Positions 19,717-59,639 of a stretch of DNA of 64,000 nt are shown one piece after another. Position numbers and translations under genes: made by a program. Position 1 is the first letter of the stretch, and every line of letters begins with the position of its first letter. Origin of the DNA: Peribacillus frigoritolerans (GTDB lineage Bacteria > Bacillota > Bacilli > Bacillales > DSM-1321); contig NZ_CP158190.1 of NCBI RefSeq assembly GCF_040250305.1, forward strand, positions 714,001-778,000. The letters are read 5' to 3'. The notes under the pieces were generated by a model. It was not told the DNA's origin. It saw only the letters and a list, made by a program, of their open reading frames with translations, and did not search any database.

Positions 19717-19955
19717 AAAAAATCCCGTCTCATTAAGAGACGAGATTTGAACTCGCGGCACCACTCTTGTTTAATGACAAACGCACATTAATGCGTTGTC
19801 CCATTTAACGGGGGAAACCGGAAAAGCCTACTGAGGCTTCGGCTTTACTTCTCGGGGATGATCTTCGGTTATATTCTGGACACTGGCTTTCAGCAAAGCA
19901 CCAGCTCTCTTTGGAACAGAACGACAACGTACTCCTTCCCTTCATGGAATTTTAC
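19717..19955 (-). promoter_or_regulatory. T-box leader, probable isoleucine specifier (AUC)
   Basis: On the minus strand: Stem I base GGGA with AGTA (about 19926-19940); a distal arm GAGCTGGTGC...GCCAG; then CCGAAGATCATCCCCGAG, where GAA-G-AUC-A puts the specifier AUC at 19860-19862. The T-box is AGAGTGGTGCCGCG (19754-19767), with UGGU pairing to an ACCA end, which fits tRNA-Ile (discriminator A). The terminator stem CGTCTC/GAGACGGGATTTTTT (19717-19746) follows. Uncharged tRNA should allow read-through into the ATP-grasp gene. Confidence 0.88.
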
Positions 19956-26814: not shown

Positions 26815-26965
26815 CGGTCTTATGACCTCCTTCGCTTTAGCCGACGAAGTTAGCTGACGGGTAGGATGGCGAAAGAGCTGATCTCATCCCTTCTGCAAGG
26901 CAGAATTAACCCCAAATGATTGGGTCCTCCGTACTCATTTTCCATGAGTTTTGGCCGAAATGCAT
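26815..26965 (-). promoter_or_regulatory. ydaO/yuaA (c-di-AMP) riboswitch
   Basis: On the minus strand the class hallmarks are present: GGAGGACCCAAT pairing with TTGGGGTTAATTC, then CCTACCCGTCAGCTAACTTC, then GAAGGAGGTC. Family knowledge: c-di-AMP binding turns off K+ uptake and osmolyte genes. It sits upstream of ktrB-ktrA, as in Bacillus ktrAB. Between the aptamer and ktrB there are T-rich hairpins fit for an expression platform, though I cannot fold it reliably. Confidence 0.88.
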
Positions 26966-27082
26966 TAAATTGATAAACGTATTCTACTCCCATCATTTAG
27001 CAGTTGTAAACCCCTAAATCGTAAAAAAATATTTCTTTAACAAAACTGAAAATTTACGTTTTATTTACATTTAGAAAACGTA

Positions 27083-50815: not shown

Positions 50816-51565
50816 TCAGTCATGGGTAATTAATAATAGTACACCTAGCGCAATGATGATAAAGAATAAATAGCTTTCGAATTTCTTCGCAGGAATTCGC
50901 TTATTCATGAAGATTCCAAGACCTGTCGCAAGTAATATGGCTGGAATGGAATAAGCGTAAAGAATAAGTGAATCGACGGTCCACAGTCCGCCAAGCGCAT
51001 GACCCGTCACGACCAGGATTCCGGATATAAGAAAATGGGCTTGCAATGTTCCGCGAAATCGATCTGGATTCCATCTTCGTAACGTTCCATAGACGACGAC
51101 CGGCACTCCGTTAAAGTTATAGGCGCTGCCAAGGACTCCCGACGCAAAACCGAAAGGCCATACCCAGCCCTTCGAGTTGAGTAAGGGTTTATCCACAGCC
51201 TGAAAAAGTTTTTGCTTTACAAGAGAATATCCCCCATATGCAATCAAAAAAACACCGAGTGCAGAAGTGATGATCATAGAAGGTGCGTAATGCAGCAATG
51301 CGAGGCCGGCTGGTATGCCGATGAATGTTGAAGTCGCCAACCTGATTAAAACCGAGCGTTCGATATGCCGCCATCCGCTAACGACGGTAAGTGAAGCAAC
51401 GGTAAGACCAGCCAATCCAATCAGGGAAACCGAAGTATTAAGCGGAATGTGAAGTAAGGCAAGCAGCGGCATGCTGACAATCGCTTCACCGAACCCGAAC
51501 ATCGTCCGCATCAAGGCGCCGATAAAGACTGCCGCCACCACCAATATGATGCTGCTGATCGTCAT
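50816..51565 (-). CDS. TauE/SafE-family exporter (sulfite/sulfoacetate type)
   Basis: A 249-residue protein with about eight helices and the family motif GALMRTMFGFGEAIVSMPLL in the first repeat and GFASGVLGSAYNFNGVPVV in the second. Family members export sulfite, sulfoacetate or related anions during organosulfur breakdown. This matches the nearby SsuD- and SfnG-like monooxygenases, whose reactions release sulfite or sulfinate. It stands as its own unit. AGGAGGTG lies just before ATG 51565. Confidence 0.85.
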   Translation of the reverse strand: MTISSIILVVAAVFIGALMRTMFGFGEAIVSMPLLALLHIPLNTSVSLIGLAGLTVASLTVVSGWRHIERSVLIRLATSTFIGIPAGLALLHYAPSMIITSALGVFLIAYGGYSLVKQKLFQAVDKPLLNSKGWVWPFGFASGVLGSAYNFNGVPVVVYGTLRRWNPDRFRGTLQAHFLISGILVVTGHALGGLWTVDSLILYAYSIPAILLATGLGIFMNKRIPAKKFESYLFFIIIALGVLLLITHD

Positions 51566-51991: not shown

Positions 51992-52654
51992 TCACCTTTT
52001 ATCAAGCTTAGCAGAAAGGTAATTTCCGGCGAATTGGACGGATTGAACAATGATGATAAGAAGGAATACGGTTGTTATCATGATGTCAGTCTGAAAACGG
52101 TAGTATCCATAACGAATGGCCAAGTCGCCAATTCCCCCGCCGCCCACGACCCCGGCAATAGCCGAGTAGGATATGAAAGAAACGGCAGTAACAGTTAGTC
52201 CTAACAGGAGACCGGAACGCGCTTCTAATAATAATACTTTGAAAATGATCTGGAAGGGGGATCCACCCATAGCAACAGCTGCCTCAATGGTCCCCTTTGG
52301 CACCTCACGTAAAGATTGTTCAACAAGCCGAGCTAAAAAAGGAATGGCAGCTATCGATAATGGGATGGAGGCGGCCAGCGGACCTACAGATGTTCCCAAT
52401 ATCGTTCTTGTAAATGGGATAAGAGCAATGAGTAAAATGATGAATGGGAAGGAACGGACCGTGTTGATCATTGCGTTTAAAACGTTATTTAAGATAGTCT
52501 GTTCGAGTAATTGCTCCTTTGAAGTTAAAAATGTAATGAAACCAAGTGGGAGGCCCAATAAGATAGCTGCAAATATCGCTATTCCCACCATTAAAAATGT
52601 TTGGCCTGCACCTAAGTAAATTTCAGGAAGTAAGGAAATGATATTATCAAACAC
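51992..52654 (-). CDS. metP: Methionine-type ABC transporter permease (MetP/MetI)
   Basis: A 220-residue permease with five helices and the EAA-type loop EAAVAMGGSPFQIIFKVLL (about residues 138-156), typical of MetI/MetP. It works with MetN and the lipoprotein MetQ, both encoded upstream. Its start overlaps the end of metN by 8 bases. Family substrates are L- and D-methionine and methionine sulfoxide; other organosulfur compounds are possible given the neighbours. Confidence 0.93.
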   Translation of the reverse strand: MFDNIISLLPEIYLGAGQTFLMVGIAIFAAILLGLPLGFITFLTSKEQLLEQTILNNVLNAMINTVRSFPFIILLIALIPFTRTILGTSVGPLAASIPLSIAAIPFLARLVEQSLREVPKGTIEAAVAMGGSPFQIIFKVLLLEARSGLLLGLTVTAVSFISYSAIAGVVGGGGIGDLAIRYGYYRFQTDIMITTVFLLIIIVQSVQFAGNYLSAKLDKR

Positions 52655-53408
52655 TTACCTTCACCTCCTCTTCAGATTCATGTTTTAATAGAATTTTACC
52701 GATTTTCGTTGTGGGTACGGTTCTATTATCCGCTAAGTTCAATTCCTCCATGATTCTCCCATTTTCCATGACCGCCACCCTATTTGCTAACCTTCGAATT
52801 ACATCCATTTCATGAGTCACGATCAGGATGGTCACACCATAGGTTTCGTTTATTTTTTTTAGATAGGCCAGGATGGATTGAGTGGTTTGCGGATCAAGTG
52901 AAGAGGTTGGCTCGTCACATAGCAATACATTAGGTCTTGTGCTTATGGCACGGGCGATCGCGACTCTTTGCTTTTGTCCGCCAGAGAGCTGCGCTGGATA
53001 ATGATTGGCTTTATCAGATAAATCGACGATTTGCAGGGATTCAGCTATAATTTTGGCTCGCTCATGTTTTGGTACATTGGCAAGTTCCAATGCCAGACTA
53101 ACATTTCCTTGTACCGTTCGATTTGCCAAGAGGTTGAAATGCTGAAAAACCATCCCGATTTTGTTGCGTGCTTCTCGAAGCTGTTTGCCAGATAAATCAC
53201 TAAGGATAGAATCATTTATTGCTATCGTACCTTCAGTAGGCTTTTCTAATAGGTTACCCATGCGCAGTAAAGTCGATTTACCTGCACCGCTAAAACCGAT
53301 GATCCCATATATTTCATTCTCCTTAATATCCAGATTTATATTGGAAACGGCAGTGAATAATTCATTTTTTACAGTAAATGTCTTACCTACATTTTTAAAT
53401 GTTATCAT
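52647..53408 (-). CDS. metN: Methionine-type ABC transporter ATPase (MetN)
   Basis: A 253-residue ATPase. Walker A GFSGAGKST (about residues 38-46), signature LSGGQKQRVAIARA, Walker B VLLCDEPTSSLD. It lacks the long C-terminal ACT/NIL domain (about 90 residues) of typical MetN (about 340 residues), so substrate feedback (trans-inhibition) is not expected. ATG 53408 is 7 bases after GGGAGG; the frame is open up to 53444 without a site. Confidence 0.9.
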   Translation of the reverse strand: MITFKNVGKTFTVKNELFTAVSNINLDIKENEIYGIIGFSGAGKSTLLRMGNLLEKPTEGTIAINDSILSDLSGKQLREARNKIGMVFQHFNLLANRTVQGNVSLALELANVPKHERAKIIAESLQIVDLSDKANHYPAQLSGGQKQRVAIARAISTRPNVLLCDEPTSSLDPQTTQSILAYLKKINETYGVTILIVTHEMDVIRRLANRVAVMENGRIMEELNLADNRTVPTTKIGKILLKHESEEEVKVSV

Positions 53409-53444: not shown

Positions 53445-54278
53445 TCATTTAAAATAATCAGGCCGGTGAAATCCTTCAAATTCTGTATTGCTTTCAATCG
53501 CTTTTTGAAATTCAGGGGATTGGTAGGCGTTAATGATTTCCTTCACGAATCGTTTTTTCTTATCTTCGGTTCTTACTGCTACAAAATTTTGATATTCAAA
53601 TGGGGGATCCTCTAAATAAAGGGCGGAAGAAAGTTTCCGGTCGGATACCAAGATGGTATACCCATTGGCTACCGCATAATCTACATCAGGCAAGATTCGG
53701 GGAACTTGAGCCTGTTCCACCTCAACAAATGAAAAGTTCACTTTTTGATCGACGATATCTTTTTTGGAGACAGTCAAGGGATCGTATCCTTTTTTTAATT
53801 GAAGCCACCCTATTTGTTCAAGCATTCTTAATGCTCTTGCCACGTTAGCGGGATCATTCGGGATTGCCACTTTTTGCCCATCCTTCAATTCATCCTTGCT
53901 GCCATGCTTATCGGAATATAAGCCCATAGGTGCTGTGGGGACTTTAATGGTTTCGGTAAGCTCCAGTTTGTTTTCATTGATGAAATTCTTGAAAAAAGCA
54001 GTATGCTGAAATACATTTACATCGATGGAGCCTTCGGCCAAGGCAAAGTTTGGTTGGTTTGGGTCACTGATTTCCACGTATTTAACGGAGTATCCTTTAT
54101 TTTTCAAATAAGGTTCTATGCCTTTTTTCACTTGGTCACTATAAGGACCTGGAGTGAAGCCGAAAATAATTTCTTTCTTAGCTTCACTCGCTGCTTTATC
54201 ACTGCCGTTGCTGTTGCAAGCTGAAAGCAACATGACGAATAATAGGGACATGATGATGAACAGAAATGAATTTCTCAT
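53445..54278 (-). CDS. metQ: Methionine-type substrate-binding lipoprotein (MetQ/NlpA)
   Basis: A 277-residue lipoprotein. Signal peptide with lipobox LLSAC (Cys at about residue 21) and NlpA-type blocks GFTPGPYSDQVKKGIEPYL, VFQHTAFFKNFI and AIPNDPANVARALRMLEQIG. It captures the substrate outside the membrane. It is the first gene of metQNP and stands behind a leader with terminator. The next gene upstream, in the other direction, is the first HpaB-like monooxygenase. Confidence 0.93.
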   Translation of the reverse strand: MRNSFLFIIMSLLFVMLLSACNSNGSDKAASEAKKEIIFGFTPGPYSDQVKKGIEPYLKNKGYSVKYVEISDPNQPNFALAEGSIDVNVFQHTAFFKNFINENKLELTETIKVPTAPMGLYSDKHGSKDELKDGQKVAIPNDPANVARALRMLEQIGWLQLKKGYDPLTVSKKDIVDQKVNFSFVEVEQAQVPRILPDVDYAVANGYTILVSDRKLSSALYLEDPPFEYQNFVAVRTEDKKKRFVKEIINAYQSPEFQKAIESNTEFEGFHRPDYFK

Positions 54279-54328: not shown

Positions 54329-54405
54329 AAAAAAAAGCATGAACAAGGTTTGTTCATGCCGCCGGTTATCCGGTAGGCTTGCATAGTATAGTTTTCCAAT
54401 TGGAA
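54329..54405 (-). promoter_or_regulatory. metQ promoter and structured attenuator leader (copy 1)
   Basis: On the minus strand: palindrome TTCCAATTGGAA (54394-54405), -10 TATACT (54385-54390), then the RNA motif GCC-TA-CCGG-ATAA-CCGG-C-GGC (54378-54358). The terminator arms GCATGAACAA/TTGTTCATGC (54359-54337) and eight T follow. The last bases of the motif are also the first of the terminator arm, so the two structures compete. The same motif is found in the divergent leader at 54535. Confidence 0.75.
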
Positions 54406-54487
54406 TAATTAAACTATAACAAGAGTATAGATAATTTATCAAGTGTTAATTTTTCTGGATATTTATGGGTTAAAATCAAAAACGCAC

Positions 54488-54596
54488 TTGACCAATTGAT
54501 TTTATCGGATTATGATAGTGAACATAAAAAAATAGCTTATCGGACAACCGAGAGCCCTTGTTAGGAGTCAGTTCCATACTCCTTCAAGGGCTTTTG
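54488..54596 (+). promoter_or_regulatory. Monooxygenase operon promoter and structured attenuator leader (copy 2)
   Basis: TTGACC (54488-54493), 17 bp, TATGAT (54511-54516). The leader then has GCT-TA-TCGG-ACAA-CCGA-G-AGC (54535-54555), whose last three bases begin the terminator arm AGCCCTTG. That arm pairs with CAAGGGCT (54585-54592), with an inner AGGAGT/ACTCCT stem and TTTT after it. Compared with copy 1, both stems keep pairing through paired changes (GCC/GGC versus GCT/AGC; CCGG/CCGG versus TCGG/CCGA). Confidence 0.75.
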
Positions 54597-54624: not shown

Positions 54625-56103
54625 ATGAATAAGAGAAGCCGGCTTGCCGAAAGTTTGAAAGATGGAAGAAATGTTTGGCTTGATGGAAAGAAAATAGAAG
54701 ATCTTTATGCCCATCAGGCTTTCACAGGCACTTTAAAGACTTTAACAAATTTGTTGGGTATGCTGGATTCACCTGAAGAACAAAAGATTGTCGGGTATGA
54801 AAGTCCAAAAACAAAGGAATATGTTCATAGATCTTTTCTCATTCCTAAAGATTTGGAAGAACTGATTTCAAGAAGAAATGCTTTTGAGTTATGGTCACGG
54901 AAAACTTACGGAGTGATGAGCCGACTATCCGACTATGCGAATTCGATGGTCACAGCATATTTCATTGATAGGGATTTCTTTAACCAGTATGATTCAGGAT
55001 TTTCCGAAAAAATCACTGCATACTATGAACAGGCTAGGGATGAACGGCGTATTGTGATCCAGGCGATTCTTGACCCTCAGATAGATCGGTCAAAGCCAAG
55101 TGATGAACAGGAAGATGCTTTATTGAAAGTCATAAGGGAAACGGAAGAAGGAATCGTTGTTAGAGGGGCGAAAATGATTGCTACCGCTTCCCCGTATGCA
55201 CATGATGTCATCATCATGCCGCATCAGAAGCTGACTCCTGATAAAACGGAGCATGCCAATATGTGCATTATCCCTTTGAATCTTCCTGGCCTGCAAATTG
55301 TCTGTCGTGAATCATTCGCTTCAAAAGACCAAAAGAAACATCCATTAAGTGCACAATTTGATGAAATGGACGCTGTTTTAATTTTTGATGATGTGTTGAT
55401 TCCGTGGGAACGCGTTTTGATAAGGGGATCTGTAGAAGGAGTGTTTGAAGCTCAGCGGCACCAGCAATTGAACTGTCTCGCCCATCATCAGACGGTCGTT
55501 CGCTTGCTTACGAAGCTTCAATTCGTAACGGGGGTGGCTACGGCCATCGCTCAATCGATCGGTGTTGATCAATTCTTACAAGTGAAGGAAAAGCTTGGTG
55601 AACTATATACCCAAATCGATAGTATAGAAGCGTTGCTTATTGCTTCAGAGGTTCAAGGTTCACTTAACGAGAAGGGCGTTTATCTGCCTGCTCTCGTACC
55701 TTTGCAAACGGCCCGAAATCTTGGAACCCGCCATTATCCAAGAGCGATCGAGATTTTAAAACAAATCGGGGCGGGCGGTTTTATCCAGCTCCCTTCTACA
55801 ACGATAGAGGACAGCAACGACCTCATTCCACTATTGGAAAAGTATTTTAGAGGAGCGAATGTTGATGCCGTCACTAAAACTTCTTTATTTCAAATAGGAT
55901 GGGAACTGATTGGAAGCACACTGGGATCGAGGCATGATCTGTATGAAAGGCTGTATACCGGGGATCCCATTCGAACCTTCGCTTTGCAATATGAAACCTA
56001 TGATAAAGAGCCATTAAAACGAAAACTCCACCGTTTTTTGGAGGGGGTAAATGGAAAGGGGAATCGTGATGATCGAAAACAATCGGTATCTTCAACGACT
56101 TAA
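54625..56103 (+). CDS. HpaB-family flavin-dependent monooxygenase, paralogue 1
   Basis: A 492-residue protein of the 4-hydroxyphenylacetate 3-hydroxylase (HpaB/PvcC) family, acyl-CoA dehydrogenase fold. Blocks RNVWLDGKKIEDL, WSRKTYGVMSRLSDY, VVRGAKMIATASPYAHD and FDEMDAVLIFDDVLIPWERV are seen. Family members use FADH2 made by a separate reductase; none is in this window. It is the first gene of a four-gene operon with a paralogue, SsuD and SfnG. The natural substrate could be an organosulfur or an aromatic compound; I cannot decide. GGAGGAG lies upstream of ATG 54625, with a longer gap than usual. Confidence 0.85.
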   Translation: MNKRSRLAESLKDGRNVWLDGKKIEDLYAHQAFTGTLKTLTNLLGMLDSPEEQKIVGYESPKTKEYVHRSFLIPKDLEELISRRNAFELWSRKTYGVMSRLSDYANSMVTAYFIDRDFFNQYDSGFSEKITAYYEQARDERRIVIQAILDPQIDRSKPSDEQEDALLKVIRETEEGIVVRGAKMIATASPYAHDVIIMPHQKLTPDKTEHANMCIIPLNLPGLQIVCRESFASKDQKKHPLSAQFDEMDAVLIFDDVLIPWERVLIRGSVEGVFEAQRHQQLNCLAHHQTVVRLLTKLQFVTGVATAIAQSIGVDQFLQVKEKLGELYTQIDSIEALLIASEVQGSLNEKGVYLPALVPLQTARNLGTRHYPRAIEILKQIGAGGFIQLPSTTIEDSNDLIPLLEKYFRGANVDAVTKTSLFQIGWELIGSTLGSRHDLYERLYTGDPIRTFALQYETYDKEPLKRKLHRFLEGVNGKGNRDDRKQSVSSTT

Positions 56104-57487
56104 TGATGGCAGAAACATTTGGCTAGATGGGGATATCGTCAAAAACTTAGACGAACACCCTGCATTTAAGGGAACGGTCCATACGATACAATCATTGTTG
56201 GATTTACAAACAAAAGCAGACAGTAAATCGTTGCTGACATACAAAACGGAGGAAGGGCTTGATGCGAACCTGTCATTTCTCGTTCCAAGGACGCATAAGG
56301 ATCTGGAAAAAAAACGTTTGGCGTATCAGCATTGGGCCGATCAGACTTTTGGAGTCATGAGCCGTCTATCTGAATATTCCCGTTCCATATTTACTGGTTG
56401 GTTTGCAAACCGTTCAGAGTATGAAGCTGCACATCCAGGTTTTTCTGAAAAAATAGAAAGCTATTACTATCAATCCCGTAATCTTAATTTATTGTCAACA
56501 GTTGCAGGGCATGATCCACAAAAGGATCGTTCAAAAACATTAGTGGAAAAAAAACCGGGGATTTTACATATCAGCCGTAAAGATAGCGAAGGGATCTATG
56601 TTCGCGGTGCGAAAATGATTGCGACAGCGGCTCCGTATGTCGATGAAATTTTAATCTTTTCCTATCACAAGAGAGGAGAAAATGAACGTGAATTTGCAAA
56701 TGTTTTCTTTGTGCCTGTCAATGCGAATGGATTGCATATCGTTTGCAGGGAGTCATTTGCCGATAAACGGGAGGAGGATCACCCGTTAAGTGCACGTTTT
56801 GACGAAATGGATGCAGTCCTAATTTTTGATGATGTATTCATCCCTTGGGAGCGAGTACTGGTTCATGAGGATCCGGAATTTGCTTGGAAGCTTCGTTGTG
56901 ATGCCCCTTCATCACTGCTTAGCCAGCATCAAACAGTAGTGAGACTTGTCAGCAAACTGGAAAGTGTCGTAGCAATCGGGAACGAATTAGCGGAAACGGC
57001 TGGGGCAACACAATTTCTGCATGTGAAAGAGAAGCTTGCAGAATTGATCATACAGTTAGAAACCATTAAAGCATTACTGCTCGCTTCGGAATATAAAGCA
57101 AAAATGTATAACGGCATACTGCTTCCTAATCAAGATTTCTTAGCGACAGCAAGGAATCTGGGAACTAGATTCTACCCAAGAGCGTTGGAAATCCTCCAGC
57201 AGATTGGGGCAGGGGGGCTATTGCAGGTCCCATCCAGCATAAAAGAATTGGAAGGTCCCATAGGTCCTTTGTTAAAAGAATATTACCAGGGTACAGAGAC
57301 ATCTGCAGAAGATAGGACACGATTAATTAAATTAACGTGGGATCTATTGGGAAGCCCTCTTGCATCAAGACATGAATTATATGAGAGATTTTATTCCGGC
57401 GATCCTGTCAGAACGTATGCAGCCCAGTACAATAATTATAAAAATAAGCAGAAACTCGTTGATTATGCTTATGAGGTTTTAAAATAA
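56069..57487 (+). CDS. HpaB-family flavin-dependent monooxygenase, paralogue 2
   Basis: A 472-residue paralogue of the preceding protein with the same blocks (LNDGRNIWLDG, WADQTFGVMSRLSEY, VRGAKMIATAAPYVDE, HPLSARFDEMDAVLIFDDVF). ATG 56069 is chosen because it gives exactly the same N-terminal length as paralogue 1 and has AAAGGGGA just upstream; ATG 56051 is the alternative. The start lies 35 bases inside the end of paralogue 1. Tandem duplication followed by divergence is evident. The two may form a heteromer or act on successive intermediates. Confidence 0.85.
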   Translation: MIENNRYLQRLNDGRNIWLDGDIVKNLDEHPAFKGTVHTIQSLLDLQTKADSKSLLTYKTEEGLDANLSFLVPRTHKDLEKKRLAYQHWADQTFGVMSRLSEYSRSIFTGWFANRSEYEAAHPGFSEKIESYYYQSRNLNLLSTVAGHDPQKDRSKTLVEKKPGILHISRKDSEGIYVRGAKMIATAAPYVDEILIFSYHKRGENEREFANVFFVPVNANGLHIVCRESFADKREEDHPLSARFDEMDAVLIFDDVFIPWERVLVHEDPEFAWKLRCDAPSSLLSQHQTVVRLVSKLESVVAIGNELAETAGATQFLHVKEKLAELIIQLETIKALLLASEYKAKMYNGILLPNQDFLATARNLGTRFYPRALEILQQIGAGGLLQVPSSIKELEGPIGPLLKEYYQGTETSAEDRTRLIKLTWDLLGSPLASRHELYERFYSGDPVRTYAAQYNNYKNKQKLVDYAYEVLK

Positions 57488-57499
57488 GGAGGTCCTATA

Positions 57500-58555
57500 A
57501 TGTCTGTGCATTTTTACTGGTATGTACCTACAAATGGTGATGGTGAATACTTAGGCCTAAACGAGCCGCAGAGGAAGCCTACTTTGGATTATATAATATG
57601 CGTTGCTAAAGCAGCTGAAAAGGCCGGTTTTGAAGGGATATTAATTCCTACGGGCATACCTTATCTAGACTCATGGATAGTGGGTTCGGCCATCATTCAT
57701 CATACGAGAATAATTAAGCCGTTAATCGCTTTTCGCCCAGGATTCATCGCTCCGACGGTTGCGGCTAAAATGGCCGCGACCCTTGATCAATTCTCGGAAG
57801 GGAGAATGCTTGTCAATGTAGTGACTGGAGGTTCGGCAAAAGAATTGGGGCAGGATGGTGACTTCGTTGAGCATAATGAGCGATATGCCAGAACCGGTGA
57901 ATTCCTTGAAGTCGTACAAAAATCATGGACGGAAGAGAAGGTTAATCATATAGGAGAATATTTTACGATCAGTGATGGAGTATTGAATCCAAGCATTCAT
58001 CAAAGTCCGAATATTCCGATTTATTTTGGTGGTTCATCTGATGCAGCAAAGGAAATTGCAGCGAAATCTGCAGATGTTTATTTGCAATGGGGAGAACCAG
58101 CCCAGCAAATTGAACAACAAATCAATGATGTCAAACAAAGGGCGAAGAAGTATGGAAGGCAATTGGAATATGGTGTCAGGATTCATGTGGTCGTTCGGGA
58201 TGAGGAAAGTGAAGCATGGGAGGCAGCCGCAAAAATAATAAGTAAGGCTGACAGGGAAACTCTGAGTAATATGAATCATTACTATGAAACGACGGATTCA
58301 GTGGCCCAAAAACGGATGAATGAATTAACGAGGAACAATGAGCGTTTTGGAAGATATGGTTGGTCGGGCATCGGGAAAATCAGGAAAGGAGCGGGTACAG
58401 CCATTGTAGGCACCCCTGAACAAGTAAGGGAAGGCCTGCAAGAATATATCGATATTGGCGTCAAGCATTTTATCCTATCCGGTTTTCCTCATTTAGAGGA
58501 GGCAGAAAGATTCGGGCAAGCAGTACGGCCATTATTTGGAGAAAAGGTTTTATGA
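57500..58555 (+). CDS. ssuD: Alkanesulfonate monooxygenase (SsuD)
   Basis: A 351-residue luciferase-like FMNH2-dependent monooxygenase. FYWYVPTNGDGEYLG, GILIPTGIPYLDSWIVGSA, FRPGFIAPTVAAKMAATLDQ, NVVTGGSAKELGQDGDF and YFGGSSDAAKEIAAK closely follow SsuD. It cleaves C-S bonds of alkanesulfonates, releasing sulfite and an aldehyde. It needs reduced FMN from a reductase such as SsuE, not encoded here. It starts 12 bases after the HpaB paralogue 2 stop with AAGGAGG. Confidence 0.92.
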   Translation: MSVHFYWYVPTNGDGEYLGLNEPQRKPTLDYIICVAKAAEKAGFEGILIPTGIPYLDSWIVGSAIIHHTRIIKPLIAFRPGFIAPTVAAKMAATLDQFSEGRMLVNVVTGGSAKELGQDGDFVEHNERYARTGEFLEVVQKSWTEEKVNHIGEYFTISDGVLNPSIHQSPNIPIYFGGSSDAAKEIAAKSADVYLQWGEPAQQIEQQINDVKQRAKKYGRQLEYGVRIHVVVRDEESEAWEAAAKIISKADRETLSNMNHYYETTDSVAQKRMNELTRNNERFGRYGWSGIGKIRKGAGTAIVGTPEQVREGLQEYIDIGVKHFILSGFPHLEEAERFGQAVRPLFGEKVL

Positions 58556-58589: not shown

Positions 58590-59639
58590 ATGAAATTTTC
58601 AATCTGGGGGGCTAATTTATCAGGTGGTTTCTTGCGGGCAAACGTAGAACAAAATATGGATGGAAGTATGGAGTATAATCGGAAACTCGCTAAAATGGCA
58701 GACCAGCTACAAGTGGATTCCATCCTTTATGCCATTCGCTATGTGGGCAGTATTGGAGGTAGCTCAACGGATAGAGGTCAACTTGATCCCTTATCAGTAA
58801 TCACTGCTTTGGCAGGGGATACCGAAAATGTTCATTTTATTGCTGCGGTTTTACCGGGCTTCATTCACCCTGCAACCCTCGCAAAAGTAAGTTCAAGCAT
58901 CGACATTATCTCAAATGGGAGATTCCACATAAATTTGGTCAGCGGTTGGTTTAAAGAAGAGCAAGAAATGTTTGGGATAGAATGGATTCAGCATGAAGAG
59001 CGGTATAAACGTTCAAGGGAATACCTAGAAGTTTTAAAAGGATTGTGGACGACTGATAATTTTTCTTTTCAAGGGGACTATTATCAAATAAAGAATGCGA
59101 TATTGGCACCGAAGCCGATTCAAAAACCATATCCAGCAATCTATCAAGGCGGTAATTCCCAAGATTCCCAAGAGATGGCCGGGGAATTATCCGATTATTA
59201 CTTTATGAATGGAGCTTCCATAGAAGAGTTGAAAGAACAAATGAATTATGTAAATGCTGTAGCACAAAATCATGGTCGTGAAGTGAAATTTGCCGTTAAT
59301 GCTTTTGTCATTGCCAGGAAAACGGAAGAGGAGGCAAAAAGCGAATATCAGTATATTATCGAACAGGCAGATGATACGGCGATAGCACAGTTCAAAAACC
59401 GTAAAGATACGAAAGGAATGTGGAAAAATGCATCCTCTATTAGTGATTTTGTTGCTAATAATGAAGGATTCAGGACAGGGTTGATCGGCAGTTACGAATC
59501 AGTTGCAAGCAAAATTCAGGAACTTCAAGCAATTGGAATCGATAAGATCCTATTAACTTTTCGAAATGCACTTGAGGAATTACCGGATTTTTATAACAAC
59601 GTTAACAATCGCTTACAATCAGAGTTCATTAAGAAATAA
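58590..59639 (+). CDS. SfnG-like (dimethyl sulfone-type) FMNH2 monooxygenase
   Basis: A 349-residue luciferase-like protein. FSIWGANLSGGFLR, GFIHPATLAKVSSSIDIIS, FHINLVSGWFKEEQEMFG and YPAIYQGGNSQDSQEMA resemble SfnG, which converts dimethyl sulfone to methanesulfinate. With SsuD/MsuD-type enzymes this would release sulfite. It is the last gene of the operon and closed by a terminator. A remnant of this gene's end is at 46287-46440. AAGGGGGGAAGG precedes ATG 58590. Confidence 0.85.
   Translation: MKFSIWGANLSGGFLRANVEQNMDGSMEYNRKLAKMADQLQVDSILYAIRYVGSIGGSSTDRGQLDPLSVITALAGDTENVHFIAAVLPGFIHPATLAKVSSSIDIISNGRFHINLVSGWFKEEQEMFGIEWIQHEERYKRSREYLEVLKGLWTTDNFSFQGDYYQIKNAILAPKPIQKPYPAIYQGGNSQDSQEMAGELSDYYFMNGASIEELKEQMNYVNAVAQNHGREVKFAVNAFVIARKTEEEAKSEYQYIIEQADDTAIAQFKNRKDTKGMWKNASSISDFVANNEGFRTGLIGSYESVASKIQELQAIGIDKILLTFRNALEELPDFYNNVNNRLQSEFIKK

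Follow-up and report, generated by a model that had tools for sequence, protein, structure and literature searches.

A terminator-overlapping 21-nt hairpin in sulfur gene leaders of Peribacillus frigoritolerans and other Bacilli: a probable antiterminator with YezD as candidate partner

The stretch of DNA analysed (the window; 64,000 nt of the Peribacillus frigoritolerans contig NZ_CP158190.1, positions 714,001 to 778,000) contains two divergent operons related to sulfur metabolism. On the minus strand, genes coding for a MetQ/NlpA-type substrate-binding lipoprotein (53445..54278), a MetN-like ABC ATPase (52647..53408; NCBIfam TIGR02314) and a MetI/MetP-like permease (51992..52654; NCBIfam NF008049) were found, all with NCBIfam matches below the curated cut-offs. 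The first of these products is 70.9% identical to a protein annotated as MetQ/NlpA on a Cytobacillus plasmid. On the plus strand, the genes code for two HpaB-family flavin-dependent mono-oxygenases (54625..56103 and 56051..57487; both TIGR02309), an SsuD-like FMNH2-dependent mono-oxygenase (57500..58555; TIGR03565), and an SfnG-like mono-oxygenase (58590..59639; TIGR04021, 369.6 versus a cut-off of 382.95 bits), again all below the NCBIfam cut-offs. A gene for a TauE/SafE-like permease, read from its translation, is present downstream of the metQNP-like operon (50816-51565).

Both leaders contain the 21-nt hairpin that the original prediction had described, with the sequences and at the places given there. 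Copy 1 (GCC-TA-CCGG-ATAA-CCGG-C-GGC; 54358..54378, minus strand) lies in the leader of the metQ-like operon and copy 2 (GCT-TA-TCGG-ACAA-CCGA-G-AGC; 54535..54555, plus strand) in that of the HpaB-like mono-oxygenase operon. As also proposed, the 3' outer arm of each copy is located in the 5' arm of an intrinsic terminator (terminator scan, folding). Indeed, the first three bases of terminator 1 (54336..54360, minus strand) are the GGC of copy 1 (54360-54358), and terminator 2 (54551..54594, plus strand; 54549-54596 in a second folding run) begins at the final base of the inner 3' strand of copy 2, whose AGC lies inside the 5' arm of a terminator with the end GGGCTTTTGTG. Terminator 2 was obtained by folding and was not picked up by a simple terminator scan; a script search found the same sequence in another P. 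frigoritolerans locus (L062). The mutual exclusion of motif and terminator that had been claimed holds for the outer arm; the inner stem of copy 1 can coexist with the terminator, limiting the exclusivity there to the outer arm. Upon folding of the copy 1 leader, the terminator reached -19.1 kcal/mol versus -16.5 kcal/mol when the complete motif was forced, a cost of 2.6 kcal/mol; the corresponding values for copy 2 were -26.3 and -21.6 kcal/mol, a cost of 4.7 kcal/mol. Since folding alone thus favours the terminator in both leaders, the motif would need a stabilising factor to block it. As regards the predicted start of transcription almost at copy 1, a promoter scan around the leaders returned sigma-70-like matches only, among them TTGACC-17-TATGAT upstream of copy 2 (54488..54516, plus strand; consensus scan only). 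Immediately upstream of copy 1, a dyad TTCCAATTGGAA is present (54394-54405), which we take to resemble a CymR box, and a CCAATTGG-like sequence occurs at the same place in several other metQ leaders.

Within the window, a search for the 14-base core with at most two mismatches gave three matches versus 1.51 expected. As this resemblance is not significant, the case rests on the comparison with other genomes. Both copies are kept in four loci of the same genus (L032-L035), with a single change, G to A at the unpaired base, in copy 2 of L032. The consensus of the motif is GCY-GA-YYRG-ANNA-CYRR-A-GGC (21-22 nt in total), comprising an outer 3-bp stem, an asymmetric GA/A internal loop, an inner 4-bp YYRG/CYRR stem, and an A-rich loop of four bases; many copies that follow yezD have a fifth loop base (mostly ANAAA). 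Positions A5, A13 and A18 and the closing pair G9-C14 are nearly constant. With T for G at position 4 and C or G for A at position 18, the window copies are weak, atypical members of the family, scoring 26.8 (copy 1) and 25.7 bits (copy 2) with the final covariance model (R3) versus about 30-34 bits for the best matches of the R3 search in a class-wide sample.

Among 57 distinct copies, standard pairs filled 97.5% of 399 pair cells, and changes on both sides occurred in six of the seven pairs (106 cells; covariation score 0.711), counts that are biased towards structure, because the descriptors and models used to find the copies demand pairing. The percentage paired, the number of double-change cells and the covariation score were matched by none of 500 shuffles, whereas the number of double-change pairs was reached by 42 and that of further pair types by 495 of them. 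Slid structures were paired in at most 49.7%, and RNAalifold returned the same structure unaided from a set of 50 copies. The pairing-preserving differences that had been noticed between the window copies hence have their counterpart in compensatory changes across copies from many genomes. Furthermore, no Rfam 15 family, including the PyrR element, preQ1 and trpB (RF04312), matched the motif above its gathering threshold in the window and 40 further loci, in agreement with the prediction that it belongs to no known class. The best sub-threshold hit in the window was trpB (23.9 versus 59 bits), mostly on the terminator, and a borderline preQ1 hit in one locus (L118) lay about 800 nt from its motif. 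The SAM-I riboswitch (RF00162) gave no hit in the window leaders, and its hits elsewhere lie beside the motif. The sole T-box (RF00230) of the window, on the minus strand (19733-19954), is far from the motif. A c-di-AMP riboswitch was retrieved on the same strand (26824-26966).

The overlap with a terminator recurs throughout the family. In the fetched loci, a terminator adjoins 158 of the 211 distinct strict matches, and its 5' arm starts at the last base of the inner 3' strand in 134 of these, compared with 361 of 6778 random positions outside same-strand ORFs that adjoin a terminator. Strict matches without an adjoining terminator numbered 53 of the 211, and 38 of the 211 were located inside ORFs. 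For intergenic matches on both strands, with the loop letters left free, the terminator was found on the 3' side in 129 and on the 5' side in 5 of the 156 cases; a same-strand ORF starts 30-400 nt downstream in 105 of the 129 with a 3' terminator, and in the other direction in 40. The covariance models contain no terminator; the early loci L061-L086 were read with a scan that requires one. Taken with the compensatory changes, an attenuator function of motif and terminator is strongly supported.

The recurrence upstream of sulfur genes that the original prediction required was confirmed by covariance-model searches in many genomes. A first model, built from 15 sequences, was run against 36 genomes of the genus, where individual genomes yielded as many as 13 matches at E <= 0.5. 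In 50 loci, motif and terminator precede ssuA-like and ssuB-like genes, genes for LLM and HpaB mono-oxygenases, cysH, and genes for TauE/SafE and LysR proteins; in the order-wide loci, the motif also precedes genes for sulfate-binding proteins, metNPQ, metY, ssuE, the gene for an Rrf2 regulator, and yezD. These gene names are readings of the translations unless checked with NCBIfam. Such a check of ten proteins encoded by the window genome placed five above the curated cut-offs (two of the SsuA family, SsuD, the sulfate-binding protein, and CysH) and the ATPase and the taurine-dioxygenase-like protein below them; TauE and both YezD proteins had no NCBIfam match at 1e-10. The window genome contains nine motif sites, eight of which are R3 hits at E <= 0.01. 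They belong to ssuA-ssuD (57217), the two window leaders (768358 and 768535), a sulfate transporter (1489408), yezD (1499112), TauE (2902465), and an ssuB-like ATPase (4728187), or lie behind a second yezD and before cysH (2909241); the ninth, retrieved by script, belongs to ssuA- and taurine-dioxygenase-like genes (4728361). The attenuator foreseen for the metQNP-like and mono-oxygenase operons is hence carried by both, without being particular to them.

The loci nearest to the window leaders among the named ones were those of Bacillus sp. SD075 (L061) and P. frigoritolerans (L062). Among 25 named loci, more distant ones keep the arrangement with changed stems, namely those of Peribacillus asahii, Oceanobacillus piezotolerans and Kurthia (both strands). 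Shouchella contains it on both strands, with a C-A mismatch in one copy, Paenibacillus naphthalenovorans has one copy, and the Cytobacillus plasmid three more. A descriptor scan of Anoxybacillus (L063) and of loci L069-L085 gave no convincing copy. In Kurthia, three tandem copies precede a mono-oxygenase gene (L067, 5812-5971), two of them with terminators; the third lacks one and is positioned shortly before the ribosome-binding site, where it might act on translation. In an initial Rfam scan of 20 loci, three loci of the genus (L101, L107 and L108) had the motif in tandem with a SAM riboswitch. A loose, mismatch-tolerant pattern search was discarded as uninformative, as it matched 57 of 61 genomes and a control pattern did so about equally often. 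Small basic FbpA-like proteins are encoded behind the motif in five loci (L117, L130, L169, L172 and L173; Pfam-checked for L169), perhaps pointing to an iron-sulfur link. A conserved protein of about 110 amino acids is encoded near the motif in four loci (L121 2661-2987, L129 1558-1890, L151 1060-1428, and L162 1114-1443), and three members that were scanned had no Pfam match above cut-off, with one sub-threshold PriA hit.

Among the ORFs downstream of 129 motif instances, YezD (PF10055/DUF2292) was the commonest small family of no known function (9 loci). In 21 of the 129 instances, yezD neighbours the motif, either with its core at most 700 nt downstream or with its stop codon falling in the interval from 35 nt before the motif to 5 nt into it. 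Fifteen yezD loci (L188-L202) were read: 14 come from genomes with no hit of the earlier covariance model R2, or a weak one (G207), and the last is the window genome's second yezD. In 13 of them, yezD is followed by a motif with a five-base loop (L192 by eye), and the next gene is cysH or cysH-like in nine of those 13, by coordinates or ORFs; the motif is degenerate in L188, and none was found beside yezD in L202 (G420). Of 16 loci scanned (L188-L201, L203 and L204), 10 have a SAM riboswitch ahead of yezD, a common order being S-box, yezD, motif-terminator, cysH. Outside the order but within the class, the orders yezD-motif-ssuA (L227), Rrf2-yezD-motif-ssuA (L231) and yezD-motif-ssuE-ssuD (L233) were retrieved; the yezD loci of two genomes (G477 and G449; L234 and L235) contained no motif. 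YezD itself is a protein of about 45-65 amino acids, for which AlphaFold predicts a helix-strand-strand fold (helix 2-18, strands 22-29 and 32-40; mean pLDDT 85, pTM 0.55). Three residues (G22, Q35 and K41) do not vary across 34 YezD sequences, and two more (E40 and R43) hardly do; a protein search returned only seven close relatives. Foldseek against the PDB gave no significant match (best E 1.4), and a profile search of PDB sequences gave short stretches only, the best in designed repeat proteins, which were taken as artefacts.

The presence of YezD follows that of the motif closely. In 397 genomes of the order, which are not phylogenetically independent, PF10055 was found in 190 and R3 matches (E <= 0.005) in 171, with both in 167, the motif alone in 4, YezD alone in 23, and neither in 203. 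By genus, in a hand count, YezD was present in 64 of the 65 motif-bearing genera, and 4 of the 68 YezD-bearing genera had no R3 hit. R3 was built after five-base-loop copies had been recognised in yezD leaders; R2, which allows a 4-nt loop only, missed those behind yezD, leaving 92 YezD-bearing genomes motif-negative at E <= 0.001. Two of the 23 genomes with YezD alone (G134, L196; G057, L236) carry the motif according to a script search. Of the four exceptions with the motif alone, two are doubtful, one match being antisense inside an ORF without a terminator (G417) and the other lacking a terminator (G331); a third, before a primase-like gene by our own reading (G245; L185 1816, minus strand), looks real and has a terminator, and the fourth is in G185. 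Similarly, 71 genomes were sampled across the class, 66 of which belong to other orders. R3 (E <= 0.01) hit 20 of the 71, all encoding YezD, and had no match in the 46 genomes that lack YezD; five encode YezD without an R3 hit (G079, G424, G449, G477 and G480). YezD is also encoded in Bacillus subtilis, used as a control. CysH, present in 298 of the 397 genomes of the order, is a poorer predictor, as 98 of the 101 R2-positive genomes (E <= 0.001) encode YezD and 93 CysH. The association with YezD holds both within the CysH-bearing genomes (R2 motif and YezD, motif only, YezD only, neither: 91, 2, 89 and 116) and within those without CysH (7, 1, 3 and 88).

These data lead to the reading, held with a probability of roughly 0.6, that the hairpin is an antiterminator of a sulfur-starvation regulon and is recognised by YezD. 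In the ground state, the terminator would fold and the sulfur gene behind it would be off. The 3' arm of the hairpin (the last inner base, the single A and the outer strand) would at the same time form the U-tract-proximal base of the terminator, so that a factor holding the hairpin would prevent the bottom of the terminator from forming, allowing read-through and opening the operon. This factor would most likely be YezD, the gene of which is often an immediate neighbour of the hairpin on one side or the other; as a partner it may be proposed from co-occurrence and gene order. As the regulon combines sulfate uptake and reduction with the use of sulfonates and organosulfur compounds, the ON signal would most likely be sulfur limitation; judging from the S-box stacked before yezD, YezD may also rise when SAM is low. 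Three points are inferred here: that binding means ON, that YezD is the protein binding the RNA, and which signal it senses. The further-reaching proposal that YezD/DUF2292 founds a new family of sequence-specific RNA-binding antiterminators, and together with the hairpin acts as a master sulfur-starvation switch in much of the Bacilli, behind an S-box in the yezD-cysH operon, is given about even odds.

A sulfur metabolite or a protein had both been considered in the original prediction as what the attenuator responds to; the attenuator is supported by the comparative data, and of the two options a protein is preferred, YezD being the candidate. A very small riboswitch, in which the hairpin itself binds a sulfur metabolite (O-acetylserine, sulfide or cysteine) and YezD is a mere member of the regulon, is unlikely, albeit with arguments of its own. 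Many regulon members are metabolic and a common signal is plausible, the motif occurs in tandem with SAM riboswitches and in tandem copies (three in L067), as in some known riboswitches, and YezD has no recognised RNA-binding fold. However, the few constant positions, the 4-5-nt loop and the 2x1 internal loop leave little space for a ligand pocket, and to our knowledge the smallest natural riboswitch, preQ1-I, has about 34 nt, which counts against such a reading of a 21-nt hairpin. Moreover, a riboswitch does not predict a near one-to-one co-occurrence with YezD that is tighter than that with CysH. Somewhat less probable still is a protein-dependent attenuator whose factor is another protein of the sulfur regulon or an RNA-binding protein of the host, with YezD as a companion. 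In some operons, YezD is simply a regulon member behind the motif, and co-occurrence does not separate cause from companionship; indeed, it could also result from another role of YezD in sulfur assimilation. The other candidates considered nevertheless fare worse. CysH predicts the motif less well (93 versus 98 of 101 R2-positive genomes). The FbpA-like family (PF13076) was rejected as trans factor, being present in 9 of the 71 genomes of the class-wide sample and in only 4 of its 20 motif-bearing ones, and the 110-aa family, found in four loci only, is too rare to be the partner. A palindromic DNA operator for a transcription factor, to which the imperfectly palindromic core near promoter-like sites in the window might point, is very improbable and was rejected on orientation and covariation, in view of the compensatory changes in both stems and the orientation-specific terminator overlap (129 versus 5 of 156); the motif is also found within operons, immediately after yezD stop codons. 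Hairpins arising by chance next to ordinary terminators, as could be suspected from a window core no rarer than expected at two mismatches, are the least credible account and are excluded for the family, given its conservation within and outside the order upstream of non-homologous sulfur genes and the absence of R3 matches from the YezD-less genomes of the class-wide sample; the window copies are weaker, but orthologous loci share their arrangement.

Two sentences of Naville & Gautheret (2010) describe an attenuator in bacilli that an operon for a sulfonate transporter shares with an unknown gene. Like the present motif, it is a premature-terminator attenuator linked to sulfonate, and it may be the same element; those sentences describe it without structure, regulon or factor. 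According to the title of van der Ploeg et al. (2001), the ssu sulfonate genes of B. subtilis are under termination control. In Table 4 of an RNA-seq study of B. methanolicus (PMC4342826), the leaders of ssuA, metNPQ and an MFS gene are annotated as (SAM)-(PyrR), and the 'PyrR' calls may likewise correspond to the motif. A B. cereus study places CymR boxes before cysH and ssuB, so that a control of initiation by CymR probably comes on top. What emerges from the present comparison is an RNA regulon that covers the assimilation of sulfate and sulfonates and spans more than one order of the Bacilli. It offers a testable answer to the termination control of such operons, and a function for DUF2292/YezD is proposed. 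If the size holds true (21 nt and about 50 residues), hairpin and protein would rank with the smallest RNA-protein switches found in nature and could readily be tested and reused.

Several known systems resemble this arrangement in part. The SAM-I riboswitch (S-box) controls sulfur genes by termination as well; it is often found upstream of yezD, but it is a separate element (RF00162) that the motif does not match. In the pyr operon, the small regulator gene pyrR adjoins its own attenuators, a layout that is the same as that of yezD-motif-cysH, with the gene of the regulator directly before its own attenuator. The PyrR protein is larger than YezD and unrelated to it, and the motif in the loci scanned matches no Rfam family, that of the PyrR element included. 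The RAT elements of LicT, SacY and GlcT are short imperfect hairpins that overlap the 5' arm of a terminator and are held by a small RNA-binding domain. The overlap is alike, whereas the motif differs in its 21-nt length, its loop pattern, its sulfur regulon, and the absence of an implied CAT/PRD protein. The operator of the MS2 coat protein combines a GG-ANYA-CC-like loop with an unpaired A on the 5' side, as the motif does, but it is a translational operator of a phage with another bulge position, making the likeness an analogy only. ANTAR-type antiterminators consist of two consecutive hairpins with hexaloops, whereas the motif is a single hairpin with a loop of 4-5 nt. Like protein-dependent antiterminators of RAT-like action, the hairpin shares sequence with the 5' arm of a terminator, and compensatory changes preserve this alternative fold. 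As neither a description of the motif nor a function of YezD was found in open-licence PMC papers, the system is counted as a leader antiterminator, a kind that is already known, in which the RNA and its candidate protein are new.
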